Origin: Polytrichum commune
Taxonomy: Eukaryota > Streptophyta > Polytrichopsida > Polytrichales > Polytrichaceae
Assembly (NCBI GenBank): GCA_950295325.1
Contig: OX485805.1
Location: forward strand, 13,627,501-13,691,500
Length of the DNA: 64,000 bases
Direction of reading: 5' to 3'
Shown: positions 4,548 to 52,930 of the stretch, one piece after another
How positions within the stretch are numbered: the first letter of the stretch is position 1
How the letters are laid out: each line of letters opens with the position of its first letter
Notes under the pieces: model-generated
Seen by the model: the letters and a program-made list of their open reading frames with translations, nothing else
The model's database searches: none
What the model was told of the DNA's origin: nothing
Program-made: the position numbers and the translations under genes

Positions 4548-4931
4548 TCACCGCTCACAGAATAGCATTCCTCCATAGATAGCGTCAAAGGGTTCGGAGA
4601 ACTGATGCATGAACATTTGTGCGTTCTGCATAGCGGTGTTCTCGAGGATGACATCCACGTAGTCTCCACAAGACTGAACCGATGTCACCTCCCACCCTAT
4701 AAGAGTGGCCCATGTGTGCTTCTCCACGGTCCCAACCTTCACAACAAATATTATTTCGTATTGGGAGCCCTTGAACACTTGTATAGACCAAACGAGGACA
4801 AACCCATCCTTAGGAACGTAGGAGTCATCCTCCGGTGTTTCGTGCTCCTGCCATAACATGTCTAGCGCAAGCATGAACCACCTTTCGCCAGGTCTTTTCT
4901 TTGGGGTCATATGCAAGACAAGAAGATACAA
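4548..4931 (-). CDS. Unrecognised 127-codon open frame
   Basis: An ATG-initiated open frame of 127 codons ends in the CTCACCG repeat. Its composition is balanced (WFMLALDMLWQEHE, YEIIFVVKVG, ATLIGWEVTSVQ) and more protein-like than its AT-rich surroundings. A second minus-strand frame overlaps its 5' part at 4825-5016. I do not recognise a domain and see no convincing introns. It may be an exon of a decayed gene or a transposon fragment; coding status is uncertain. Confidence 0.25.
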   Translation of the reverse strand: MYLLVLHMTPKKRPGERWFMLALDMLWQEHETPEDDSYVPKDGFVLVWSIQVFKGSQYEIIFVVKVGTVEKHTWATLIGWEVTSVQSCGDYVDVILENTAMQNAQMFMHQFSEPFDAIYGGMLFCER

Positions 4932-5158
4932 TGTTAGTTTCGGTTGTTCGACCCAAACTTCTCCAAATTGAAATAGATTTCACATGATGTAAGGGAAATG
5001 TAATGGATTGCCGCACATATTTTGGGGGATTATGTATTGTTATATGTGAACGTCATTTGTATGTTGATATGATATTTTGTTATTTTTGGGTCTATTTGCA
5101 TTTTATATTGTTTGTAACATCATTGATTCTTTGACAAGTTTATAATTGAGAGGTTGTG

Positions 5159-5209
5159 TTTGGGTCGAGTCACCCAAACAAGATGTTCTGTTTGGGTCGT
5201 CTCCCAAAC
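5159..5209. repeat. Two imperfect hairpin motifs related to the 9-kb array
   Basis: TTTGGGTCGAGTCACCCAAA (5159-5178) and TTTGGGTCGTCTCCCAAAC (5191-5209) are imperfect palindromes with the same TTTGGGTC / GACCCAAA arms as the array at 8961-9491. They are isolated, diverged copies. Confidence 0.7.
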
Positions 5210-6536
5210 TGTCCTATTTTAATATAGTTTTTAAAAGTTGGCACGTAGCATATACAATGCTTATGCATTGTGTAAGCTACAATACCTTCAATTGACAAAC
5301 ACATATTGGATATAATAAAATACAATACCTTTTGAAAGCAGTTGTTGCAGAGACTTGCTTAAAAACAAGTGTTCTTCTTCCAATAACACTGAAACAGTTG
5401 AATGTAATCTCTCACACAAATCCATAATCTCTCATACAACTCCTAAATCTCTTTTGAATCTCTCAAACAACAATTGAATCTCTCAAAACAATAAATGACT
5501 CTCTCAAATAACTTTTGTATCTCTCAAACACCTCTTGATTATCTTATAGAACTCCTAAATCTCACAAGCACTCCAACTACAATACAGACTCCAAAACCCG
5601 CAAGCACAGAATGTTGGAAAACCCTTCAACAATCTTCTACTAACTTGTTTTACTCTCACGCACTCTAAACGCCCCTCCGTAGGTTTCTGTTCTATTGCAA
5701 ACACTTCCTAACTTCTAAGATTGCAGAAGTGCAATCTCCCGCTTCAGCAAGAGAAGGGAGGGAAGGAGAAGAATCAGTAGGCGCCAAAACAACAACAAGA
5801 AGGGAGGGAAGAGAAGAAAATCGCCACCCTGAATCGCCACGGCGCTTCGCGAAAGCGGCGCTTTAGGAGAGGCAACGCTTCCACAAGAGGCGCGGAGCGA
5901 ATGCTTAGCGCGGAGAGAGAGAGAAAGAGGGAGAACTTGTGACAACTGGGGTTTTGTATGCCTCGGGAATTGGCCCCCAACCGCACAAATAGGGTGCCAA
6001 CGGGATTAGGGCACCAACGGAAATAGGGTTACGGGGAACCCTAAATCCTAAAGCCAAACCGTAAACCCTTAGCGGGCGTTAGTATTTTCAAGACACTTTG
6101 GAGTACCCTATGCGGTATCCTACAAAATGAAACCATTTATACAACTAATGCATTTTTACAACGCAACTTTATGCTAAAACCAATACTTAACCCCTACTTA
6201 CATGACACCATAACCTAAATTTTCCAAACAAGTTGAAATCATTGGTTTCTCTTTTGTTTGAGCAAGTTAGGAAAATAACATAATTGCGTAACATTTAACA
6301 ATGTAATCGTTGACATTTAGACTTTGCCAATGATGCCAACAACTCACACAATATGCAATGAATAAAAAATATAACCCCCGCCCCCCAACATGAAATTCGG
6401 AAATTTAGGATATTTGAATGTGTTCGCTAAATGTATACCTTCCCCAAGTGCATTTTCTCAAGGTTTGGAATTGCATGATCCTTATTTCAAAATGCTAACA
6501 TGCTCAAGTTTTTAGTAAATCCCTTAGATATTCACT
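5210..6536. other. AT-rich intergenic sequence with CTCTCAAA-type repeats
   Basis: Positions about 5405-5580 contain many degenerate copies of an AATCTCTCAAACAA-like unit of about 20 bp. Open frames near 5715-5986 on the minus strand are Leu/Ser-rich low-complexity translations of a purine-rich tract, and I do not believe they are genes. Nothing else was recognised. Confidence 0.55.
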
Positions 6537-7370
6537 TTGATGAATCACATAGTCGCCAATAAAACATGGATCATGATATATGTACTTCGAATGTGATATA
6601 AAGTAAATCGGAGAACCACAACATCAAATGAAGCCCTTTGACGCAATCATGTTGTTAAGGAATGTTCCCTCCACGTATATTAGATAATGACGCAAGATAA
6701 AGTTAATGTTGTTTGTATATGGAGGAAGCACTGAACAACTACGAGATTTCGTATTTAGGGTTAAGGGTTTAGGGTTTAGGAGTTAGGGTTATAACATATT
6801 AATCTATCCAATATTAACATATAACATTGACTTATTGGTGAGAATAGTTTTTTACTAGAAGGTAATAGAAAAAACGATCTTGATTATGTTAATTTGTTAT
6901 TAGGGACGTTTAAACGTGATATACTGATTGGTTTTGTGTTTATTCAAATAACATTTCATGTTGTGGATGTTATTAGGATTTAGGGGTCCAACTTTGGATG
7001 TTTTGCTCACTATAGGGAATCACATAGTCGCCAATACACCATGGTTCATGATGTATTTAATATATGGAATGTGATATAAAAGTAAATTGGAGAAGCACAA
7101 CATCAAATGAAGCCATTCAAGCAATCATGTTGTTATTCAATGTTCCCTCCACGTATATTAGATTATGGCGCAAGATATAGTAGATGTTGTTTGTATATGA
7201 AGAAGAGTCTAATAGGAAGGTTATAGTAAAGACGATCTTGATTATGTTAATTTGTTATTTAGGACGTTTAAACGTGATATACTGATTAGTCTTGTGTTTA
7301 TTCAAATAACATTTCATGTTGCGGATGTTATTAGGATTCAGGGTCCAACTTTGGATGTTTTGCTCACACA
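6537..7370. repeat. Tandem segmental duplication of non-coding DNA with a deletion in copy 2
   Basis: The block 6537-7015 recurs at about 7017-7370. Both copies start at AATCACATAGTCGCCAATA and end at GTCCAACTTTGGATGTTTTG. The second copy lacks about 115-130 bp corresponding to 6726-6845, which holds a short interstitial telomere-like run (TTTAGGG type, 6758-6790). Identity is visibly high, around 85-90% by eye. No ORF is shared. Confidence 0.85.
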
Positions 7371-8640
7371 CATTAGTAAACTTGAAGTGAACTTGAGGAT
7401 GGATTCAAATATCATTGAAAGATTGAACTAAAAAATGACATTGGTACTTAGTATCCCCTTAACGACGTCCACATACGTTCGTCATTGCCACATTTGCATG
7501 CGAGAGAATAGAACAATGTTGTAGGGTTTAGGGTTTAGGGATGACAACATATTATCTTTAAAAGTTTTTGTCACTTGCATTGCTGCAAATTGAAATTTGG
7601 AACAATAAATGAACTTTGTCATGACATCATTTGTTTTCAATATTAATAATTCGTCATGCAATGATCTTAACAACTACTTTAACTATTGTATTTAATGACT
7701 CTTACCAAAAGCCCTTACACAATGTTCAGACTTCTTTTGTCTACATATTGATTAAAATATACCGTAATGTTTGAATTCAAGTAGATTAATATCATGATTT
7801 AATATGTATATGATGCATTAGAGTGACATTGTAGAAGTCTTTGTTCTAAATCACTTTTCACAAACATTTTCTCCTCATGACACTTGAAAAAATTAATGTG
7901 GCCGCCACCCTTCCTCCCAATGGCGCATGTCATATCCACACAAAATTAAAAAAGATTAAATATCTACTTTACTTTCAATACACATTGTCAATACACACTA
8001 AGTCAGATGACGGCTGGGCACGGGTAGGTCACTTAGTGCATTTTAAAAATGACATGCGGCATAATATAGAGAGGATTAAAATCATTTGAAATAAAAATTA
8101 TAAAGGAATTCCAAATAATGAAGGGGCCATTAAATGTAGACAATCCCATTATAAGTAAGTTAGATGGACATAAAATGTGGGCCATTATTTTTTTGTAAAA
8201 TTAATATAGGGGCTGAAGATAAGGATCTTAGAAGGTATGTTTAGTATGTTTGCTATGGTCTCCTATGTGTTTTCTTCATAAATTAGTTTGCAATGATATT
8301 ATTGTTTGCAGCCTTCTTTGTTTCCGTGGCTTCCCTTAACACTCGTCAATGCTTTAGAAAGTAAATTAACTTTTATTACTTAAAAGGAAAATAGAGTACA
8401 AAAAATTGCAGTGACTTGGACAATATAAGTAATGGAAGGGTACAAACAAATGGGCCATTTTTGAAATTTAAGTAATTATAGGGAGGTTTTAATTCAGCCC
8501 TTGAAGGTAAATAACCCCAAAACAAAAAAACCCCCAACCGCACATGGTGCACAAAAATGCCTTAGAGTGACCTACCCGTGCGGCTGGGGTATCCGAGGGG
8601 CATTGAAAGATGCGCATTTTCTATAATTAACAAAAAGCGG
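7371..8640. other. AT-rich intergenic sequence, no gene seen
   Basis: Only short, compositionally biased open frames occur. A telomere-like GTTTAGGGTTTAGGG run lies at about 7524-7539. CCCACCGTGCG-type fragments around 7870-8050 and 8540-8590 resemble each other weakly. Confidence 0.5.
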
Positions 8641-16689: not shown

Positions 16690-17830
16690 AGTACGCATAG
16701 TATGTTTGGTCTCAGCTTAGCTAAGCATGTGCATGGTGTAGTGGGGCATGTGCATTGGAGTAGCCATTGTGGGATTGTGTTGTCTTGTGGTCTAGAGTTT
16801 TGGTGACCTGCATTTACGACTGTATAGTATTTTGTGTGTTTACTTGATTGGAGCGTATGTATGATTTGGTGAACGGCTTTATTATGGCGTGCTATGACAG
16901 ATTCCTTGAGTAGGGTTTGAACATGTAGATAGTAAGTGTGACCATGTATCTATGGTATTATTGGGGCATAGTGTACAATTCGGGGTTGAGTACAAGTTGG
17001 GCCAAAATATATGTTTACGGTGGTTACCCATGTATTGTGCATATCAGAATTTTAGAGTTTGTGTGATTTGGGCGTCTGTGGTCCCAAGATTTTTCCAAAA
17101 TTGGTTAGAGAGTTTGTGGTTTATTTGGTCATTGGATGTCCATTTGTCTATGTATGTGAATTTGGATTGTACTAGCCTCAATTCTTGGTTCCTATGCTCT
17201 TTGTTGATGTATGTTTGTAGGTTTCGTATAGCACCCGTGTGGGTGCATGTTGGGACCTCGTTAAGCCAATACAATATAGTATGGGTTGTATGTATTTTGG
17301 GTGTCTTGGAGGTTTGTTTAGGAGAGCTCCATCATTTGCTAGTTGATCTGTTATTTCATTGCCTATTATGCATGTGTGTGCTCTGACTTTTTGAATTGTG
17401 ATTTTATGCGTGGACCATGTTATATGGTTGACTCTAGCGGCTATGAATAGTTTGTCTAGGTGGTTATGTTGGGATGAAGGGTGGCGTATGTGGTTATTTA
17501 TTAGGTATATACTATTGAGGTTGTCTGTAAAGATGTGTGTATCTTGCATGTGGTGTTGTGTACTTTGGATTGCTATAAGTATGGCATTTAGTTCAGCTCT
17601 AAGGATGTTTTGTAGGCTTGGGAGTCTTTCCGCAATCCTAGTGTTATTGGCGGGGGAGTAAACTCCAGACCCGGCTGTGTTGCCTACACCATGTTCGTCA
17701 GGGGGTATTAATGAGCCGTCAGTGTATATGCATTGTTGGGGTTCAAATTTAAGGGGGTGGATATTGTATAGTTCTATTGTAAGGGGTGTGTTGGGTGGTT
17801 GATTTCTGGATGGTTGTATTGTGGGGCTTT
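16690..17830 (-). mobile_element. 5'-truncated LINE-type retrotransposon remnant, RNase H and 3' tail region
   Basis: Read on the minus strand, an open frame from 17828 down to 17178 encodes an RNase H domain. IYTDGSLIP supplies the first Asp, RAELNAI the Glu, IFTDNLNSIYLI the second Asp, and KITIQKVRAHT plus GNEITDQLAN the last Asp, so the DEDD set is present. After a frameshift the frame 17274-17044 continues with HRNQELRLVQSKFTYIDKWT and QFWKNLGTTDAQITQTLKF. Further shifts lead to a Cys-rich CTLCPNN...TWSHLLSTC motif near 16900-16990. These are typical of the C-terminus of plant LINE ORF2. No reverse transcriptase is found upstream of 17830, so the copy is 5'-truncated and frameshifted. 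It cannot transpose. Confidence 0.8.
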
Positions 17831-18354: not shown

Positions 18355-21243
18355 TTACGCATGGAGGGCCTTCACCCTTTCACGCCCTTCTCGTTCTGCA
18401 GTCTCTTCAGGAGTTTCAATCTGGTATAAAAGGACGAGAATCAGCACATATACTTCATTCAATAGCATCAGCAACTGTCGACAACTAAGAGTCAGAAAGG
18501 TGATTAAAAAGACACAACTGAAAACCTGTCACAAAGCCAGGTATTTGATAAGCTAGGGTCACATCTTAATAAAATCAATAACACCGTAATGAGGGACTGC
18601 AACATCGTGACTTACCTCACTCAATGCCTTGAAAACAGCTTTTACAGTGTTGTGAGGATGTCTAGAACCCACCACCTGCAGCAGACAAAAAATCATGTGA
18701 CGAAAAATCACCACATTGGAATAAAAATTTGATACAGCAAAAATGAACAGAAACAACTATCAATAAGCTCAATGAAGCAGCACTGTCATGTATACCTTTG
18801 TCTTCACATCTTTGAAGCCAGCCAATCGCAAGATGCCCCCCACTGTATGGCTAGCCCTCATTCCCGTCCCTGACTGAGCTGGCCACAAATAGATCTATAA
18901 AACCAACAACTGAAAATCAGGATAAAAAGAAATGTCTTCCCCACGTAAACAAAGGTCTTGAGGGGCAAACTATCGCTTCATACACATCCAAGGGCCAGCC
19001 TGACATCCCCTCTGAATACCTTACTGAAAGCCAAAGGCAGAAATGAGCACAACACTCACTACAACACATAATGTCACAATAATGACCTCAGAGAGTTAGA
19101 GTGTACCTTGGTCTTGCCATACTTAGAGGTTTTCTCATGAAAGATAGTATGGCCTTCAAATCTTTCAAAGTAATGGAGATTGCGCAGAGCCCTTGCATAA
19201 GCCTGACAAGACAATGAAGAATCGATTCTCAATTCAGAAAGAACAAAGCAACTGACATAAGAATTCAGTGAAGGAAAAGCCTGATTATGTTGCAAAGGCA
19301 TTCAGAGATATAAACCTTGTCAACAGCTGAAGATATTTCAGCAGACTTGCCCTTTCCAAATCCAGCAACTCCATCACCATTTCCACAAATAACCATTGCA
19401 GTGAAGTTCAGGATACCTCCACCCTGCATGAGAACTTCTACTTCAGTCACAAACTTCTGCACAATTTACTACAAAATTCATATCTTTCCTCCATTACTGG
19501 AAGTAGTAAAGATACATAAACCCCGTGTTCTGATAAATCGTTAACCTAATCTGATCACTACAGTAATGCTCAATTCTAACTTAAACTGCACACCAGCATC
19601 ATACTGCAACTTGACTTTAGATGAAGGGAGCAAGTACCTTTGTCACTTTGCAGGTCCGATTCACATCAACAACCTTCATGGTGAACCCCTGCAATGCATA
19701 AAAAGGTAAATCCATAAGATCATATAGAATTGTGGTAGAAAATCCACCATTATCTCAATATATTGATCTTCTGAATTGCAGAATAAGGCCATAACTGGAC
19801 CTACATCCTTACCCGCTTTTGAGGTCTTCCTTCAGACTCAAGATTGCGTATCTTCAAAGCCTTTTGTAATATAAAGCGTTGCTTCCTCCGAGGAGAATTC
19901 TGCAACTGAAGTTCTAGTTCAGAAGGTTCCACACTTATCATTTCAGAGCCATCACCAGCTTCGTCAAGTGGTTCACCTTCAATATCATCCTCCACCTCGA
20001 CCTCCTTTGGTCTGAGAAGAGGCTCGTTCTGCAGACCTCCAGGATATCTGTCTGTAACCCACACAGAAAGTAATCAAATTGACTAACATACATACATAGA
20101 TACATTTTTCCCTCCAGAACCATACAATCACCTGAGATAATCATAGGTAGTTTGCAACCAAAAGTACTGTTGGATTCATAAACAGGTGATGTCTTCTTGC
20201 AGTCAGTACACAAAATTGTTTCAATAATCCAAAAGCAGAAGCTGATATGGTGATACAGTGGCCATTTGTTTTTTTAAGAGATATACACACATTGATACAC
20301 TGCTTCAGGTCCTGACATCGATCCTAAAATGGCATTATGGGTTCTCACCTGAATCAGATGTAGCTCGCAGGGACTCTATCCGTGTTGCTATGCTCTGATG
20401 ACCACAAGAAATTATCTCCACAAATAAGAATGTACTCAATGCACTAAAAGTGAACCCCACATGACATTGAAGAATCCTTGCCCATCTGCATTGCAAATGA
20501 ACTTCTAATTTGCTTAATAATCTGAAATTTGATTCCATGGCTTGTGACAGTCACCTAACTCAAGAATATCTCTGGTGCATATAATACTTACCATGCTCTG
20601 TTGCCAGATAGGAAGGGATTTGAACTGTTTGCCATCTTGTAGCCAGCTTCCACTTAGCCCTACAAAAATCCGCAATTACAACGTTTCAAAACTCAGACTT
20701 GCTCAGGGCATGAAACTCCTTATCTCATTCATCCTTCACATTGCTTCCCTCTCAATTCAGATGTCACCACTTACTTTATTAGGGAAATCACACAAAATAC
20801 TCGTATCATGGGAAGGAAACAGGATCCAAAACTTCAAATGGGATCGACGTAGAGAGGAGGAGCTGCTCTACAACCTCACGAGTCTGGGTCATTGCCAACA
20901 GAATAAGACCAGCTACTAGGATTGGGTATTCAGCACTCTTCCACATTAATCGACCACATGAAATCGTGTTACGGGATTCCAGCGCATGCTATTCAAAAAT
21001 TACTGGAACCTGAAATTTTCACACCAAAATGGCAAATCGACTATATCTTCGCTCACAGCCATCCACTGGTTTACCTGAACTAGGAAAAGGCCTCGAGGCC
21101 ACGTTGGAAATCTCAGCCTTTCCTGACCTCAGGTTTTGTACACACGCTCCCAGAGCTTGCCATCTCGGCGCCTGATTTCCACGGCTGCCTTTCTCGATCC
21201 TCTCCAGGCTCCGCCACAGTCGTGCTCCCCTGGAGCCCCACAT
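18355..21243 (-). CDS. Mitochondrial ribosomal protein uS5m, 10 exons
   Basis: Minus-strand exons 21243-21075, 20659-20592, 20394-20349, 20051-19813, 19688-19638, 19423-19316, 19202-19107, 18894-18796, 18675-18616 and 18420-18355 join in phase to 333 residues. uS5 is a small-subunit protein near the decoding site. The S5 core is plain: VVDVNRTCKVTKGGGILNFTAMVICGNGDGVAGFGKGKSAEISSAV, followed by AYARALRNLHYFERFEGHTIFHE, IYLWPAQSGTGMRAS, AGFKDVKTKVVGSRHPHNTVKAVFKAL. This order matches the plant mitochondrial S5 type rather than the plastid one. I take the ATG of MWGSRGARLWRSLE as start because upstream in-frame sequence has no ATG and this stretch is an Arg-rich amphipathic presequence. Residues about 95-175 form an acidic family-specific spacer. 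Confidence 0.9.
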
Positions 21244-21269
21244 TGGATCCCCTTCTTCACCGAATAGCG

Positions 21270-21314
21270 TCAGACATTGAGTGCAAAAGCAGCTGAGGGG
21301 GAGACATTCGCCAT
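21270..21314 (-). other. Upstream ORF in the uS5m leader (14 codons)
   Basis: MANVSPSAAFALNV-stop, beginning 71 bases before the main ATG. The counterpart at 22434-22478 has the same length and spacing. A second, overlapping uORF (MSDAIR-stop) follows in both copies. Confidence 0.55.
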
Positions 21315-21353
21315 AGCCAGACGCAAGAAGCAACGCAAACAACAAAGAGCTCG

Positions 21354-21434
21354 GGGTTTAGGGTTTACGCTCTCCTCGAATCACGTCCCGAATGAGGGAC
21401 CCATATATTTCTTGAGCCCTCATTCGAAGGCCCA
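21354..21434 (-). promoter_or_regulatory. Telo-box and site II promoter elements of uS5m gene
   Basis: On the minus strand AAACCCTAAACCC lies at 21354-21366 and TGGGCC at 21429-21434. This pair (telo-box plus TCP-bound site II) is the established signature of plant promoters for ribosomal and other translation genes. Confidence 0.7.
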
Positions 21435-21450
21435 AAAGATGCTCATCTAA

Positions 21451-22311
21451 TTTGACCCTAATTACACTATCTTGGTAAGTCTTAAATCAGAAGTCTTAAT
21501 TGAAAACTTTTCTCTCTGTACCCACTTCTTGTAAAATATGACATGCGATTAGTGTGAGATTATGATTACCAAATCCAAATTGCGCCCATAGTCATTATTT
21601 TTTTATGGACATCTTGTGCTTTATCAAAGTGAATATTTGTCGTGCTCGTTAATTAGTCATACATGTCACATGATTTATGTTGACTATTGAGTCTAGAGTG
21701 ATATAAATATTTTGAGCACATAGGTCAGTATCTTTTCAATTCAAATCTTTTTGGTGTCCGTTCTTAGATCCACACTTGTCCACACACCATTCAAATATAG
21801 ATGTCCATATTATAAGGGTGTTAATTTACTACCAATATACGTTATTACTTGAGGGTTTTTTTCATTTTTAGATCAAGTATAAAGTGAGAGTTGCAACCCT
21901 CATTTGTGAAGTAAAATTACGAGCTCCATGTAATTGCTTTCAGTATACAAAAGTTTAATCTTCATAAAATGGTTGATACTTGTAATCTTGTTCATTATAT
22001 ATAGACTCATGGCGCACCTTGAGATGCATAGAAAATATGACATCACAATATATCAAATTTGAACTATTAAAAGATAAATAGGCACACAAGTGAGTATATT
22101 TTGCTTTTCACCATCTAACATTTAATAACAATTAACCTTTACATGTCAATAAACCATAATATGAATAATAAGCTTGTATTGTGATAATTTCATCTTTTTC
22201 CATTTCTTAGGAAATGATTTATTTAAAATCACTTCATTTTTAGACCACTATTTCTACACATGATTGTAATGTTTCTTGATTTCAAACCACCTTTCACCTT
22301 CAAGGGGGTTA
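21451..22311. other. AT-rich spacer between the two inverted arms
   Basis: About 860 bp without ORFs. A TTTGGTGTCCGTTCTTAGATCCACAC-like segment (from about 21751) recurs near 39890, and a related piece occurs inverted near 27660, suggesting a dispersed repeat. Confidence 0.5.
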
Positions 22312-22329
22312 AGTTAGATGAGTCTCTTT

Positions 22330-22394
22330 TGGGCCTTCGAATGAGAACGTCATTCAGGACATGATTTCGGAGCGATGCCCTAAACCCTAAACCC
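22330..22394 (+). promoter_or_regulatory. Site II and telo-box promoter elements of uL22m gene
   Basis: TGGGCC at 22330-22335 and CCCTAAACCCTAAACCC at 22378-22394, in the same order and spacing as the uS5m promoter. The start codon follows about 110 bases later. Confidence 0.7.
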
Positions 22395-22433
22395 AGAGCA
22401 TTTTGTTATTTTCGTTGCTTCTTGTGTCTGGCT

Positions 22434-22478
22434 ATGGCGAATGCGTTCCTCTCGACTGCCTTTGCACTCAATGTCTGA
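22434..22478 (+). other. Upstream ORF in the uL22m leader (14 codons)
   Basis: MANAFLSTAFALNV-stop, 71 bases upstream of the main ATG. It is overlapped at its end by MSDAIR-stop (22471-22491). Length and start spacing equal those of the uS5m copy, and the C-terminal FALNV is identical. Confidence 0.55.
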
Positions 22479-22504
22479 CGCTATTCGGTGAAGGAGGGGA
22501 TCCA

Positions 22505-25500
22505 ATGTGGGGCGTCAGGGGAGCACGGCTGTGGCGGAGCCTGGAAAAGATCGAGAGAGGCAGCCGTGGAAGTCAGGAGCCGAGATGGCAAGCTTTGGGA
22601 GCGTGTGTACAAAACCTGTGTGCCGGAAAGATTGAGATTTCCAACGTCGCCTCGAAGGCTTCGTCTAATGCAGGTAAAATATTGGATGGTTGTGAGCGAT
22701 AATAAACTCGGTTTGCAATATTGGTCGAAAATTTCAGGTTCCAGTATCTTGTGAATAGCGTGTGTTGGAATCTGGTAATACGATTTCATGTAGTCGAGGG
22801 ATGTGGAAGAGGGTTGAATATCCAATGCGAGTAGTTGGTCTCATTCTGTTGGTAATGACATCAACACGTTAGATTGTAGAGCACCTCCTCCTCTCTCTAC
22901 CTCGATCCCATTTCAGGTTTTGAATCCTGTTTTCTTCCCATGACATTATTATATTGTGTGATTTTCAACATAAAAACGACTTGGTGACATTTGAATTGAG
23001 AGGGAAGCAAGGTAAAGCATGAATGAGATGGGGAATTTCATGCGCTGAGCGAGTCTGAGTTGCTAAACGTAGTAATTGTGGATTTTTGTAGGGCTAGGTG
23101 GAGGCTGGCTACAAGATGGAAAACAGTTCAAATCCCTCCCTATCTGGCAACAGAAGATGGTAAGTATTATATGTTCCAGAGACATCCTTGAGATAGGCGA
23201 CTGTCACAAGTGCTGGAATCAAATTTTGGATTGTTAAGCAAATTAGAACTTCAAATGAATGCAGATGGACAAGGATGCTCTAATTTCATGTGAGTTTTGG
23301 TGAATCAAATTGCGCTCTTTTTAAGTCTCGATTGAATGGAATGTCTCTCCTGGGCATGGGTCAACGGCAAGGGAATATGTACCAATAAAAATGAAAACAT
23401 GTCGATTGATTTCTCTGATGATGATAAACTATATGCTGTTGTGATGACCAGGGAATCACAAGCAAAGCAGAGTCCTGTAAAGAAGATGCCGGTGACCAGC
23501 TAGTGCGCTCACCACTTTCTCAAGCTCCTGGGCCAGTAGACGGTGCTGACGGAGTCACAAAAACAGCAATTAATCCAAAGAAAGATGCACAGGCTGTTTT
23601 GACTTATATAAAGCAGGTTCACCATTCTCTTCACCTGGATTACACTTTGAGCTTGGTTATTTTCTAGAAGGAAATTACCAATTTGTTTTTCTCTGTTGTT
23701 AAACGGATAAGTGTGGCCACTTAACCATCGTTTGTCGGTATTCTACTCTCAGTCCTCTTCCTAGTATAACATCTCATACCTTTTTAAATTTGCCAAATGT
23801 GGAAATGAAGCATGGATGTGTGCAATAACTCCAATAAGTCTGCCTGTTTTCCACAGTACAGATGTAGTTCATCATGCTCAATCAATAACCCAAGAGGTTT
23901 CTCCTTTTGGTAGTGTCTTTCCTGTGCACTCTTCAGTTCTTCAGAACAATGTGTGGCTGTTTTGGCTTTTCTGGGAATTAATCTCTTGTCACCCAGGCAT
24001 GTACCCTGGCATTTTCAGCTTTTCGTATGGAAACATGTATCTTTTGATTGTCTGCTCCATACTGTCCTCAGTTTGAACCAGGCATTTGTAACTTCCTTCA
24101 TCATAACTTTCTCAGGTAGCCTCCATTCTGAAAGCTATTTTGTTACTTTTTAACTGCATTTCAAGCAGTGGTATGACTGACAAGGTGGATGTTTTGGTTA
24201 AATAGAGTCCAAAGAAAGTGAATCTGGTTGCTGAGTTAGTGCGAGGCATGCGTGTGGATGATGCATTAATGCAATTGGCTGTATCCACAAAACGGGCTGC
24301 CAAGGTTGTTGCAAAGGTAGTGCATCTTCTCATGGACCTTTGGAATTTTTATTTTTTTAAACTTCTCAACTCTTGAAAGTTGGTCCCACATGGGAATGGG
24401 GTCTGGCCTGGTCTTTGAAGGCATGTATGGAATAAGTGAACTCAATATATGTCAAACTGAGTCTGTTTTATATGCAGGTCATGACTTCTGCTCGTGCCAA
24501 TGCTACCCACAACCATGGTTTGGACAAGGACAAACTCATTGTTGGTAGGTCACAGCCCGCTTACCCCTTCTATTGACTATGTTGTATCATCTCTCTCTAG
24601 CTACAAAGTGGATTGCAGCAATATTGTAGTGAAGGAACTAGTCCTTTGATGGGAGTGTAAGTGCTCCTGAGGGCTTGATTTTGATGTCTACTGACTTAAT
24701 GTAGACTAGACTCTTAGGGCCACTTGTCACTATGGCTCAAGGGCGGTGACCATGAAACTGTGAGGGCTGTTAAAATTTATTTGAAGGCCATATCGTGGAA
24801 AATTGACTTGAAGTCTGTGGAGTCATGGGTCTTCAAGGGCATCTTAAAGACATGCAACCGGGCTCTCAACTGAATGCTATTTCATCACCATCCTATTCAT
24901 GTGGGCCCTTGAACACAATAAGTCACAAATAATTAAGGGTTGTGAGATTTGCAAGTGTAATGATGTCCTGGTATTGTGTAAGACCCACCCCTTTGAGATG
25001 AGCCTGATGCAAATTCCGTTAGACCACGGAACATTCTCCATTTGGATTCCATGTAGGATTTTCATCCATTTGAAGCATTCTTGGTCCCTTAGGCCCTCAA
25101 GCTCTAGTTCAAAGTAAGTGAAGTGGATGGTCTCAGCAGCTTAAATTAAAAAGCACAGCAAATAAATATTTATTTTTTCAAATAACTAAAAAGATAAATA
25201 AAAATATCTATTACCACCTTTTTTTCTCGTTTACTAGCACAAAGTGTATCAGAAGGTAGTTTTCACCCGAGTGATTTTTAGATTTCAACGGTCATGGGCC
25301 CTCCAGTGCAAAGTGTGCCATAGAAAGAGGAGGGAGATACTTATGTGTTCTCATATATTCCTATTCATGTGTGAGCAGCGGAATCTGACTTTTTTCTTAT
25401 GTGGGATTTTGCAGCTGAGGCATTTGTAGGCAAGGACAAGTACTTGAAAAGACTTAGGATCCATGGAAAAGGAAAGGCAGGGAAGATGGTGCATCCACGT

Positions 25501-25689
25501 TGTAGACTTACAATCATTTTGAAGGAGTTGTCCCCTGAGAAAGAAGCAAAGCTTGCTAGGCTTCGAGTCTTGAGGTCCCACGGCAGAAAAATTCATGGTA
25601 GCAATGCCAAGCTAGCACCTCATCGGGTTATTCAGACACAGTGGCAATGGTCGAGGAAGAGGGTTCAAATTGAAAGCCCATCTTCTTAG
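22505..25689 (+). CDS. Mitochondrial ribosomal protein uL22m, 6 exons
   Basis: Exons 22505-22673, 23092-23159, 23452-23616, 24206-24316, 24478-24544 and 25415-25689 join in phase to 284 residues. uL22 lines the polypeptide exit tunnel of the large subunit. Exons 4-6 carry the L22 fold: SPKKVNLVAELVRGMRVDDALMQLAV, KRAAKVVAKV, TSARANATHNHGLDKDKLIV, AEAFVGKDKYLKRLRIHGKGKAGKM, HPRCRLTIILKE. Exons 1-2 (MWGVRGARLWRSLEKIERG...GWLQDGKQFKSLPIWQQ) are not L22 sequence. They are a near copy of the first two exons of the neighbouring uS5m gene and supply the predicted mitochondrial presequence. The exon 3 donor (CAG|GTTCAC) is weak but phase-correct. Confidence 0.9.
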
Positions 25690-51525: not shown

Positions 51526-52930
51526 AGGATATTGATGGAACGTAGATATTCTGCTTCTTGACACATTTGTTTTATAATTTTGATGATTTGGTATGAGCTC
51601 TACTGATGATGATGAGACAGAAGATTCTCGTCATCTAGGTCTTTCAGTTGTTCTATTATTGGGTTCTCTGTCTACTGGATCGCTTGGTCGAAAATGGATG
51701 TGATGCTTATCCTTCGATCAGTGTGTACCTGAGACTTGTACTTTACTGAAATCACTTTCAATCGATGTAAAATCTCGATTCTCAATCTGTAATTTTTTAG
51801 CGAGGTGATCTATATACTTTTGACTTGTCTGTATATCTTCACTGTTGTTAGTAAAACAGATAAACTTGAATGTGGTAGGTGTGATAGGTCGATGTTCGTT
51901 GTGACGTATAGGTCACGTTTGAATGGTTGGTGTAATGTAAATTCTAGAAATTCTTCGGCGGTCTAACTCACAATTAGGGAAAGTATTTTTGTAAAAATAC
52001 TTGACCTTTCACCGACCTTTACCTCCAAGAATTGTTACACAATTAAACTTTGAATTGCTGAATATCGGAATAATGCTGCCAACACATTATCCAGCAATTG
52101 TAAAAATGAGTGTTGCTCCAATCGACGTTGCATGGACGTAATAAGCATTTACTTCACCAGGAATATTCTACTTAAAGATAATGCACATTCTGTACTATTT
52201 CAGTCCACTATCATAACATATGGAGGACGAAAATATTGAGTAGCAGCCGTTGGCAAATAGCTAACATACAACCAATTTTATGCACATGGCAAACTATACT
52301 TAAATTACCAGAACTCAATGCGAGATTAACAGACATGACTTGCAGTGCTAAGATTTCACGTGTGCCTGAAATGTTTAGCCTGATTTCCTGAAATGTGAGA
52401 TGCATGGGAATTGGCGCAGAGTTTATGTATATAATGTGAAGATGTAGAGAGGAGAAGCATACCTTTCTCGGACTTTCAACTAAGATGAATTGTACTATCA
52501 GTTCTTGTCAGGTTATTATCTGATACAAATTTCATTGAACCTCGTAGTAATGATCTAATCTTTCTTGGGTACGGGCTTAATTATACGGCAGCGTGCTCTC
52601 AGAGCCCGCAAGCGTTGATGAATGAAGTTGGAAATTCTTGTCGACCTTGGTTATAATTTTGTAGCAAATAATAAAAGAACATGAATTGTTCGTCTCTGTT
52701 GGTTATGTGTATGCATAGGCTTTCCAGTTGGCCAGTACTGGAATTCTCCACATCAGTATTGAGGAATGTAATACTTTCGGCTCCTGAATCCAACATCCAG
52801 AGGGAATCGAAAGTATTACAGGTAAACGGAATGCAAGTTGTTTCTTAATTTTATTGTTGCCCTAAACAGGATAGATACGAGCCACGATCCTTAAATATGT
52901 GATTAATGTTGTTCTGCAAACTTGTCCAGT
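51526..52930. other. LEA 3' flank and intergenic sequence
   Basis: Includes the probable LEA 3' UTR. The only notable item is a copia-derived micro-inversion at 52769-52818, described separately. No gene seen. Confidence 0.5.
52769..52818 (-). repeat. Short inverted fragment of the copia gag-pol junction, flanked by an 11-bp inverted repeat
   Basis: TAATACTTTCG (52769-52779) and CGAAAGTATTA (52808-52818) face each other. Read on the minus strand from 52818, the sequence matches 53672-53712 of the copia element (AATACTTTCGATTCCCTCT, then ATGTTGGATTCAGGAGCC), but with TGG where the element has TAG. Confidence 0.8.

Follow-up and report, generated by a model that had tools for sequence, protein, structure and literature searches.

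The window analysed here, a stretch of 64,000 nucleotides (nt) from the moss Polytrichum commune (assembly GCA_950295325.1, contig OX485805.1, positions 13,627,501 to 13,691,500, forward strand), contained two genes for mitochondrial ribosomal proteins, uS5m on the minus strand and uL22m on the plus strand, which are head-to-head neighbours with 1261 nt between their start codons (Table 1). Exon positions were set by eye and by homology, not from transcripts; both models were open up to the stop codon and all their introns were GT..AG. The uL22m protein carried the Pfam domain Ribosomal_L22 (PF00237) at residues 127-230 (E 2.9e-32), and uS5m carried Ribosomal_S5 and S5_C (PF00333 and PF03719) at residues 176-239 and 254-322, encoded in exons 3-10 (18355-20394, minus strand). 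No other uL22m or uS5m gene of comparable similarity was found in the assembly (10 and 14 matches respectively). Beyond the window, uL22m matched the sequence C8 (33%, E 7e-13), which is plastid because it also holds psaA and psaB, and, as one weak match of its 10, a frataxin gene on the sequence C2 (E 0.14); uS5m had three matches there, two at 35-40% on C1 and a third at 31% on C2, which are probably relatives from other compartments. The psaA of C8 was nearest to the chains 8htu and 6l35 (1724 and 1704 bits), ahead of 9lut (1698) and then 1651 bits, which makes a moss source likely. The 8htu structure comes from the moss Physcomitrella; 6L35 is from Physcomitrella too (PMC7884438).

The nearest solved chains (PDB, HMMER) were plant mitoribosomal: 9evs_1T and 6xyw_As for uL22m, and 6xyw_Bd for uS5m, for which 9evs was also matched. 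The 6xyw chains are labelled AT1G52370 (uL22m) and At1g64880 (uS5m), from Arabidopsis, and PMC12672651 gives Brassica oleracea as the source of the 9EVS and 9GYT structures. The moss uS5m was short (333 amino acids vs. 515 in Arabidopsis and 501 in Brassica), which could mean either the replacement of a longer N-terminus or that none was ever gained. The N-terminal extension of angiosperm uS5m was mostly absent or unrecognisable in the moss protein; in cauliflower, part of it shapes mRNA entry (PMC12672651).

The 5' ends of the two genes were homologous, and the mirror copy of about 1 kb described in the earlier note was confirmed: 837 of 978 aligned columns were identical (85.6%), with 32 gap columns, and the repeat search resolved the arms into six collinear inverted pairs, 83-90% alike. 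Both arms run from the promoter side through the leader and the first two exons (169 and 68 nt), with intron 1 between these, into intron 2, as had been stated, but the intron 2 portion amounts to 133-138 nt and not to about 190. Identity was 86.4% on the promoter side, 86.4% in exon 1, 83.7% in intron 1, 91.2% in exon 2 and 85.0% in the intron 2 part (78-93% in 60-column windows along the arms). The likeness of 80-85% claimed even for introns thus agreed with the measured values, and intron 1, on whose alignment the claim had been made to depend, could be aligned. That the two genes share one cassette was loosely worded: the cassette is homologous in both, but each gene has its own copy.

The arm ends are sharp. 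The flanks past the distal ends did not align (score 8, reached by 258 of 300 shuffles), and neither did the two halves of the spacer to any significant degree (score reached by 59 of 300 shuffles). A DNA search of the 408-Mb assembly with the uL22m arm (E<=1) found three places, all of them scored: the arm itself, the mirror arm (E 2e-294), and 64 nt at the frataxin start on C2; therefore, the arm, the 5' segment that the genes share, is not part of a dispersed repeat. This query revealed no further full cassette copy, an absence that is unproven given that some stretches of the assembly are N. A query made of part of the uS5m arm and the spacer gave, beyond both arms, repeat copies only, among 40 scored of 970, a sample that cannot show the absence of other copies.

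Table 1. Positions of the two gene models, the inverted arms and associated features (window coordinates unless another sequence is named).
Feature	Position	Strand	Details
uL22m gene model	22505-25689	+	six exons, 284 amino acids
uL22m exon 1	22505-22673	+	169 nt, gene model; cassette, begins MWGVRGARLWRSLEK...
uL22m exon 2	23092-23159	+	68 nt, gene model; cassette until residue 79
uL22m exons 3-6	23452-23616, 24206-24316, 24478-24544, 25415-25689	+	gene model; carry the L22 domain
uS5m gene model	21243-18355	-	ten exons, 333 amino acids
uS5m exon 1	21075-21243	-	169 nt, gene model; cassette, begins MWGSRGARLWRSLER...
uS5m exon 2	20592-20659	-	68 nt, gene model; cassette until residue 79
uS5m exons 3-6	20394-20349, 20051-19813, 19688-19638, 19423-19316	-	gene model
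uS5m exons 7-10	19202-19107, 18894-18796, 18675-18616, 18420-18355	-	gene model
uS5m-side arm	20458-21458	-	from the promoter side into intron 2
uL22m-side arm	22306-23292	+	from the promoter side into intron 2
Site II-like TGGGCC	22330-22335	+	uL22m arm; mirror at 21434, minus strand
Telo-box-like AAACCCTA	22382-22389	+	uL22m arm; mirror at 21366, minus strand
Upstream open reading frame	22434-22478	+	14 codons, in leader, uL22m arm; mirror 21314-21270, minus strand
Spacer between arms	21459-22305		847 nt
Abundant dispersed repeat copy in spacer	21493-21813		about 320 nt matched
Frataxin gene	C2:35671623 onwards (positions 4624-8031 of the extracted locus)		other chromosome; exon 1 opens with cassette codons

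One TGGGCY and one AAACCCTA motif were present in each arm at corresponding places, as had been noticed before (39 and 10 occurrences respectively in the whole window, both strands); we take them to be of the site II and telo-box kinds, as named in the earlier note. Divergent (bidirectional) gene pairs are a known arrangement, which uS5m and uL22m resemble in their head-to-head position and in the distance between their start codons. Unlike such pairs, however, each of the two genes has promoter motifs of its own, mirrored in the other arm, and the symmetry comes from duplication; the motifs are doubled, one set in each arm, of a promoter region that may or may not act bidirectionally. The leaders of both arms also contained a 14-codon upstream open reading frame (MANAFLSTAFALNV and MANVSPSAAFALNV); a second ATG, heading a frame of six codons that was identified by eye, overlaps it. 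Translational control by the upstream open reading frame is possible.

The coding part of the cassette corresponds to residues 1-79 of each protein, 62 of them identical, and both ribosomal domains begin outside it (L22 from residue 127, S5 from 176). The earlier statements that the core folds start past the homology, and that the predicted presequences and the promoter regions are copies of each other, were both upheld: two genes with unrelated mature proteins have in common a DNA-level copy of a predicted presequence. The assignment as a mitochondrial presequence is a prediction from an amphipathicity calculation, in which the maximum hydrophobic moment of residues 1-18 was equalled by 0.5-0.7% of shuffles; the net charge of residues 1-13 was +3. 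Splice-site dinucleotides and reading frame were maintained into both protein cores. No indel was found in the 237 exon nt vs. 13 gap events in the 750 other nt (Poisson P 0.016; two of the 13 were only 2 nt apart and may be a single event), and the exons of both copies were free of stop codons, which appeared in 79-80% of the runs of a neutral simulation. Amino-acid changes were unevenly distributed: residues 1-36 had 5 (neutral mean about 9), residues 37-57 had 9 and residues 58-79 had 3. This would fit, without proving it, a presequence whose N-terminal helix is conserved and whose middle is freer to vary. The first methionine after Met 1 was residue 79 in both proteins, followed by residue 132 in uS5m and residue 149, already within the L22 domain, in uL22m.

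A third gene with the same start was found on another chromosome. Its exon 1 begins with about 15 codons, MWGxRGARLWRSLER, as in uS5m and uL22m, and its later exons encode frataxin (PF01491, E 1.5e-36); the cassette-like exon 1 is predicted, by splice prediction, to be joined to the frataxin body. Frataxin residues 1-65 used as a query retrieved themselves, uL22m (E 0.004), uS5m (E 0.014) and one chance-level match; the frataxin start was not among the 14 matches of the uS5m protein. At the DNA level, the 231 nt around the frataxin start codon matched only the two arms besides themselves (E<=10): 86% over 49 nt for the uS5m arm (E 3e-7) and 79% over 67 nt for the uL22m arm (E 6e-7). Codon agreement at shared degenerate residues of the first 15 codons was 7/11 between frataxin and uS5m (P 0.002) and 5/10 between frataxin and uL22m (P 0.04), with codon use for these P values estimated from two window genes only. 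Because of the DNA matches and the codon agreement, common ancestry of the MWGxRGARLWRSLE start, though short, appears more likely than convergence. A pattern search for it gave five matches at <=2 mismatches, three of them (the two arms and frataxin) with none, vs. one match for the reversed pattern used as a control; the three genes were already known when the pattern was chosen.

The frataxin leader (repeat excluded) matched neither the uS5m nor the uL22m leader; the remainder of frataxin exon 1 and its intron 1 showed no similarity to uS5m above shuffles; and the 1 kb upstream of frataxin contained neither TGGGCY nor AAACCCTA. A similarity first seen between the uS5m and frataxin leaders (score reached by 0 of 200 shuffles) disappeared once the repeat was removed (reached by 415 of 500). 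Predicted frataxin exon 2 has an RRFFSS stretch of its own, which resembles a processing site.

The spacer between the arms contains one copy of an abundant dispersed repeat, for which a first look gave 2967 candidates, 40 of them scored; some copies form pairs, either inverted or direct, at distances of roughly 0.4-1.3 kb. In a star-like tree with 11 other copies, the terminal branch of the spacer repeat was 0.227 or 0.241, part of which may precede the insertion, and the copies in the tree were picked by similarity to the window. The intron distance between the arms was 0.18 (0.16 without CpG sites), or about 0.08-0.09 per copy. A transposable element was considered as the carrier of the start and rejected, the repeat copies in the spacer and upstream of frataxin not being sisters (p 0.307 vs. 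0.225-0.256 between the spacer copy and the 11 others).

Two further features of the window lie outside the arms. An open frame on the minus strand close to the 3' end of uS5m (17178-17828) contained an RNase H-like stretch (TDGSLIPPDEHGVGNTAGSGVYSP) and is presumably the end of a retroelement. An Rfam match to U2 snRNA on the plus strand (52459-52654, 53.1 bits vs. a cut-off of 46) had a low score for a full-length match and may be a pseudogene.

On balance, we think it probable that the stretch of uL22m from the promoter to intron 2 was copied, inverted, onto the 5' end of uS5m, the divergent gene next to it; if such an event took place, uL22m is quite probably the donor. Residues 24-64 of Arabidopsis uL22m aligned to the uL22m cassette with a score of 27 (shuffle mean -9, reached by none of 2000 shuffles) and to the uS5m cassette with a score of 16 (reached by 14 of 2000); in these alignments and those with Brassica the right end was anchored at the exon 2/3 junction. 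The linker past this junction aligned with Arabidopsis uL22m in uL22m (score reached by 38 of 2000 shuffles) but not in uS5m (1932 of 2000), and the HMMER match of Arabidopsis uL22m reached back to moss uL22m residue 43. The matches of the two angiosperm uS5m chains to moss uS5m started only at residues 130 and 136. From these comparisons we infer the direction; how the copy was made, where transcription begins, and the targeting and cleavage described next are likewise inferred. Copying would have been templated across the spacer, by fold-back replication or by an ectopic conversion-like event, and uS5m would have gained a ready promoter, leader, upstream open reading frame, predicted presequence (exons 1 and 2) and splice donor; the junction with the old uS5m gene would lie inside an intron, so that the frame was preserved. 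The mirrored promoters would drive both genes outwards, and both precursors would be imported via a near-identical amphipathic N-terminus that is later removed.

Several results weigh against this reading, and they are best considered together with the alternatives that they favour. Polarity depends on angiosperm sequences, and just one of the two angiosperm uL22m sequences sides with uL22m as the donor: Brassica uL22m reached scores against the uL22m and uS5m cassettes that 232 and 432 of 2000 shuffles also reached, and its HMMER match began at residue 76, in the last cassette residues. Moss uL22m residues 1-106 gave no PDB match at E<=10 (uS5m residues 1-110 gave RACK1 only, E 0.94, chance-like). 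A cassette native to uS5m and taken by uL22m would agree with the split between the two angiosperm sequences, and with a frataxin start slightly nearer to the uS5m DNA, but we regard this opposite direction as unlikely, in view of the Arabidopsis score that none of the shuffles of the uL22m comparison reached and of angiosperm uS5m chains with no match before moss residue 130. The earlier claim that one gene took its targeting and promoter regions from the other is partly supported: the regions are copies, and uS5m is the more likely recipient.

The branch of the spacer repeat was also longer than the whole arm-to-arm path (0.16-0.18), which suggests modestly that, at similar rates, the repeat predates the divergence of the arms, and so favours copying across an existing spacer, or ongoing conversion, over a fresh palindrome that was later divided by an insertion. 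The description of the event as not ancient, drawn from the likeness of the arms, introns included, gives only a minimum age, because conversion between the arms could maintain their likeness and because of this longer branch. The same branch, and the 15 or so codons common to frataxin at the DNA level, would suit a start that both genes received from a third source, be it a lost gene or one resembling frataxin, or else old copies kept alike by conversion, that is, an old co-evolving divergent promoter. We consider this improbable: frataxin shares only about 49-67 nt, with a dissimilar leader, rest of exon 1 and intron 1, and identity along the arms is fairly even, without a sharply converted block. 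Constraint on the two presequences, finally, appeared weak overall, because the 17 amino-acid changes in 79 residues were close to the neutral simulation mean of 20 (P 0.13) and dN/dS of the cassette was 0.83 (NG86) or 0.77 (LWL85). Such values might be expected if the second cassette were an idle by-product, in either direction, of an inverted promoter end placed beside a gene that uses its own start; this we hold to be very improbable, as neither copy has an exon indel or a stop, donors and acceptors are in frame with the cores, and the next methionines after Met 1 are residue 79 and then 132 or 149.

Presequence copying among mitochondrial genes is already known in angiosperms. According to PMC2631504, the presequences of rice rps11-1, Arabidopsis sdh3 and carrot rps10 were copied from the genes for other mitochondrial proteins (atp2, hsp70 and hsp22 respectively), and sdh3 of Cupressaceae and Cephalotaxaceae has a heat-shock-protein presequence (PMC8317393). 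As in the first three cases, a gene for a mitochondrial protein would here have acquired its presequence as a copy of that of another gene; unlike in them, the moss copy includes the promoter side, the leader, a whole intron and part of a second, the copies are inverted and adjacent, and both genes are mitoribosomal. The three precedents concern genes that had left the organelle for the nucleus (PMC2631504). Rice rps14 and sdhB also have one targeting signal for two unrelated mitochondrial proteins, but there a single presequence is joined to two bodies by alternative splicing (PMC2631504), whereas the moss has two separate, diverged copies on opposite strands. Rice rpl6 gained its 5'-UTR (untranslated region) via a transposable element (PMC2631504), and is similar in that a mitoribosomal gene acquired new 5' non-coding DNA; in the moss, however, the repeat lies in the spacer, outside the arms, and the arm did not turn up as a dispersed sequence. 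Among the titles and abstracts listed in searches of the literature, none mentioned an inverted promoter-presequence duplication between mitoribosomal genes or a presequence common to frataxin. What appears to be new here is that the copy is inverted, takes the promoter along and links two adjacent mitoribosomal genes, together with the frataxin fragment.

Land-plant mitochondrial DNA is not known to carry rps5 or rpl22. What is usually inferred about how nuclear genes come by working promoters and mitochondrial address labels draws on cases that are old and blurred; in P. commune the two copies can still be aligned in their introns, promoter side and leader, so that breakpoints, direction and later divergence are readable. 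This suggests that presequences may be swapped between genes long nuclear, and not only after transfer from the organelle. More tentatively, and with some doubt on our part, the start module MWGxRGARLWRSLE may have been passed among at least three nuclear genes for mitochondrial proteins, once over a short length, involving frataxin and one of the ribosomal genes, and once as an inverted cassette between uL22m and uS5m. If true, one large-subunit and one small-subunit protein would stand under mirrored control. The locus also lets one ask, in a natural setting, whether promoters that arose by copying bring the two ribosomal subunits under joint regulation.

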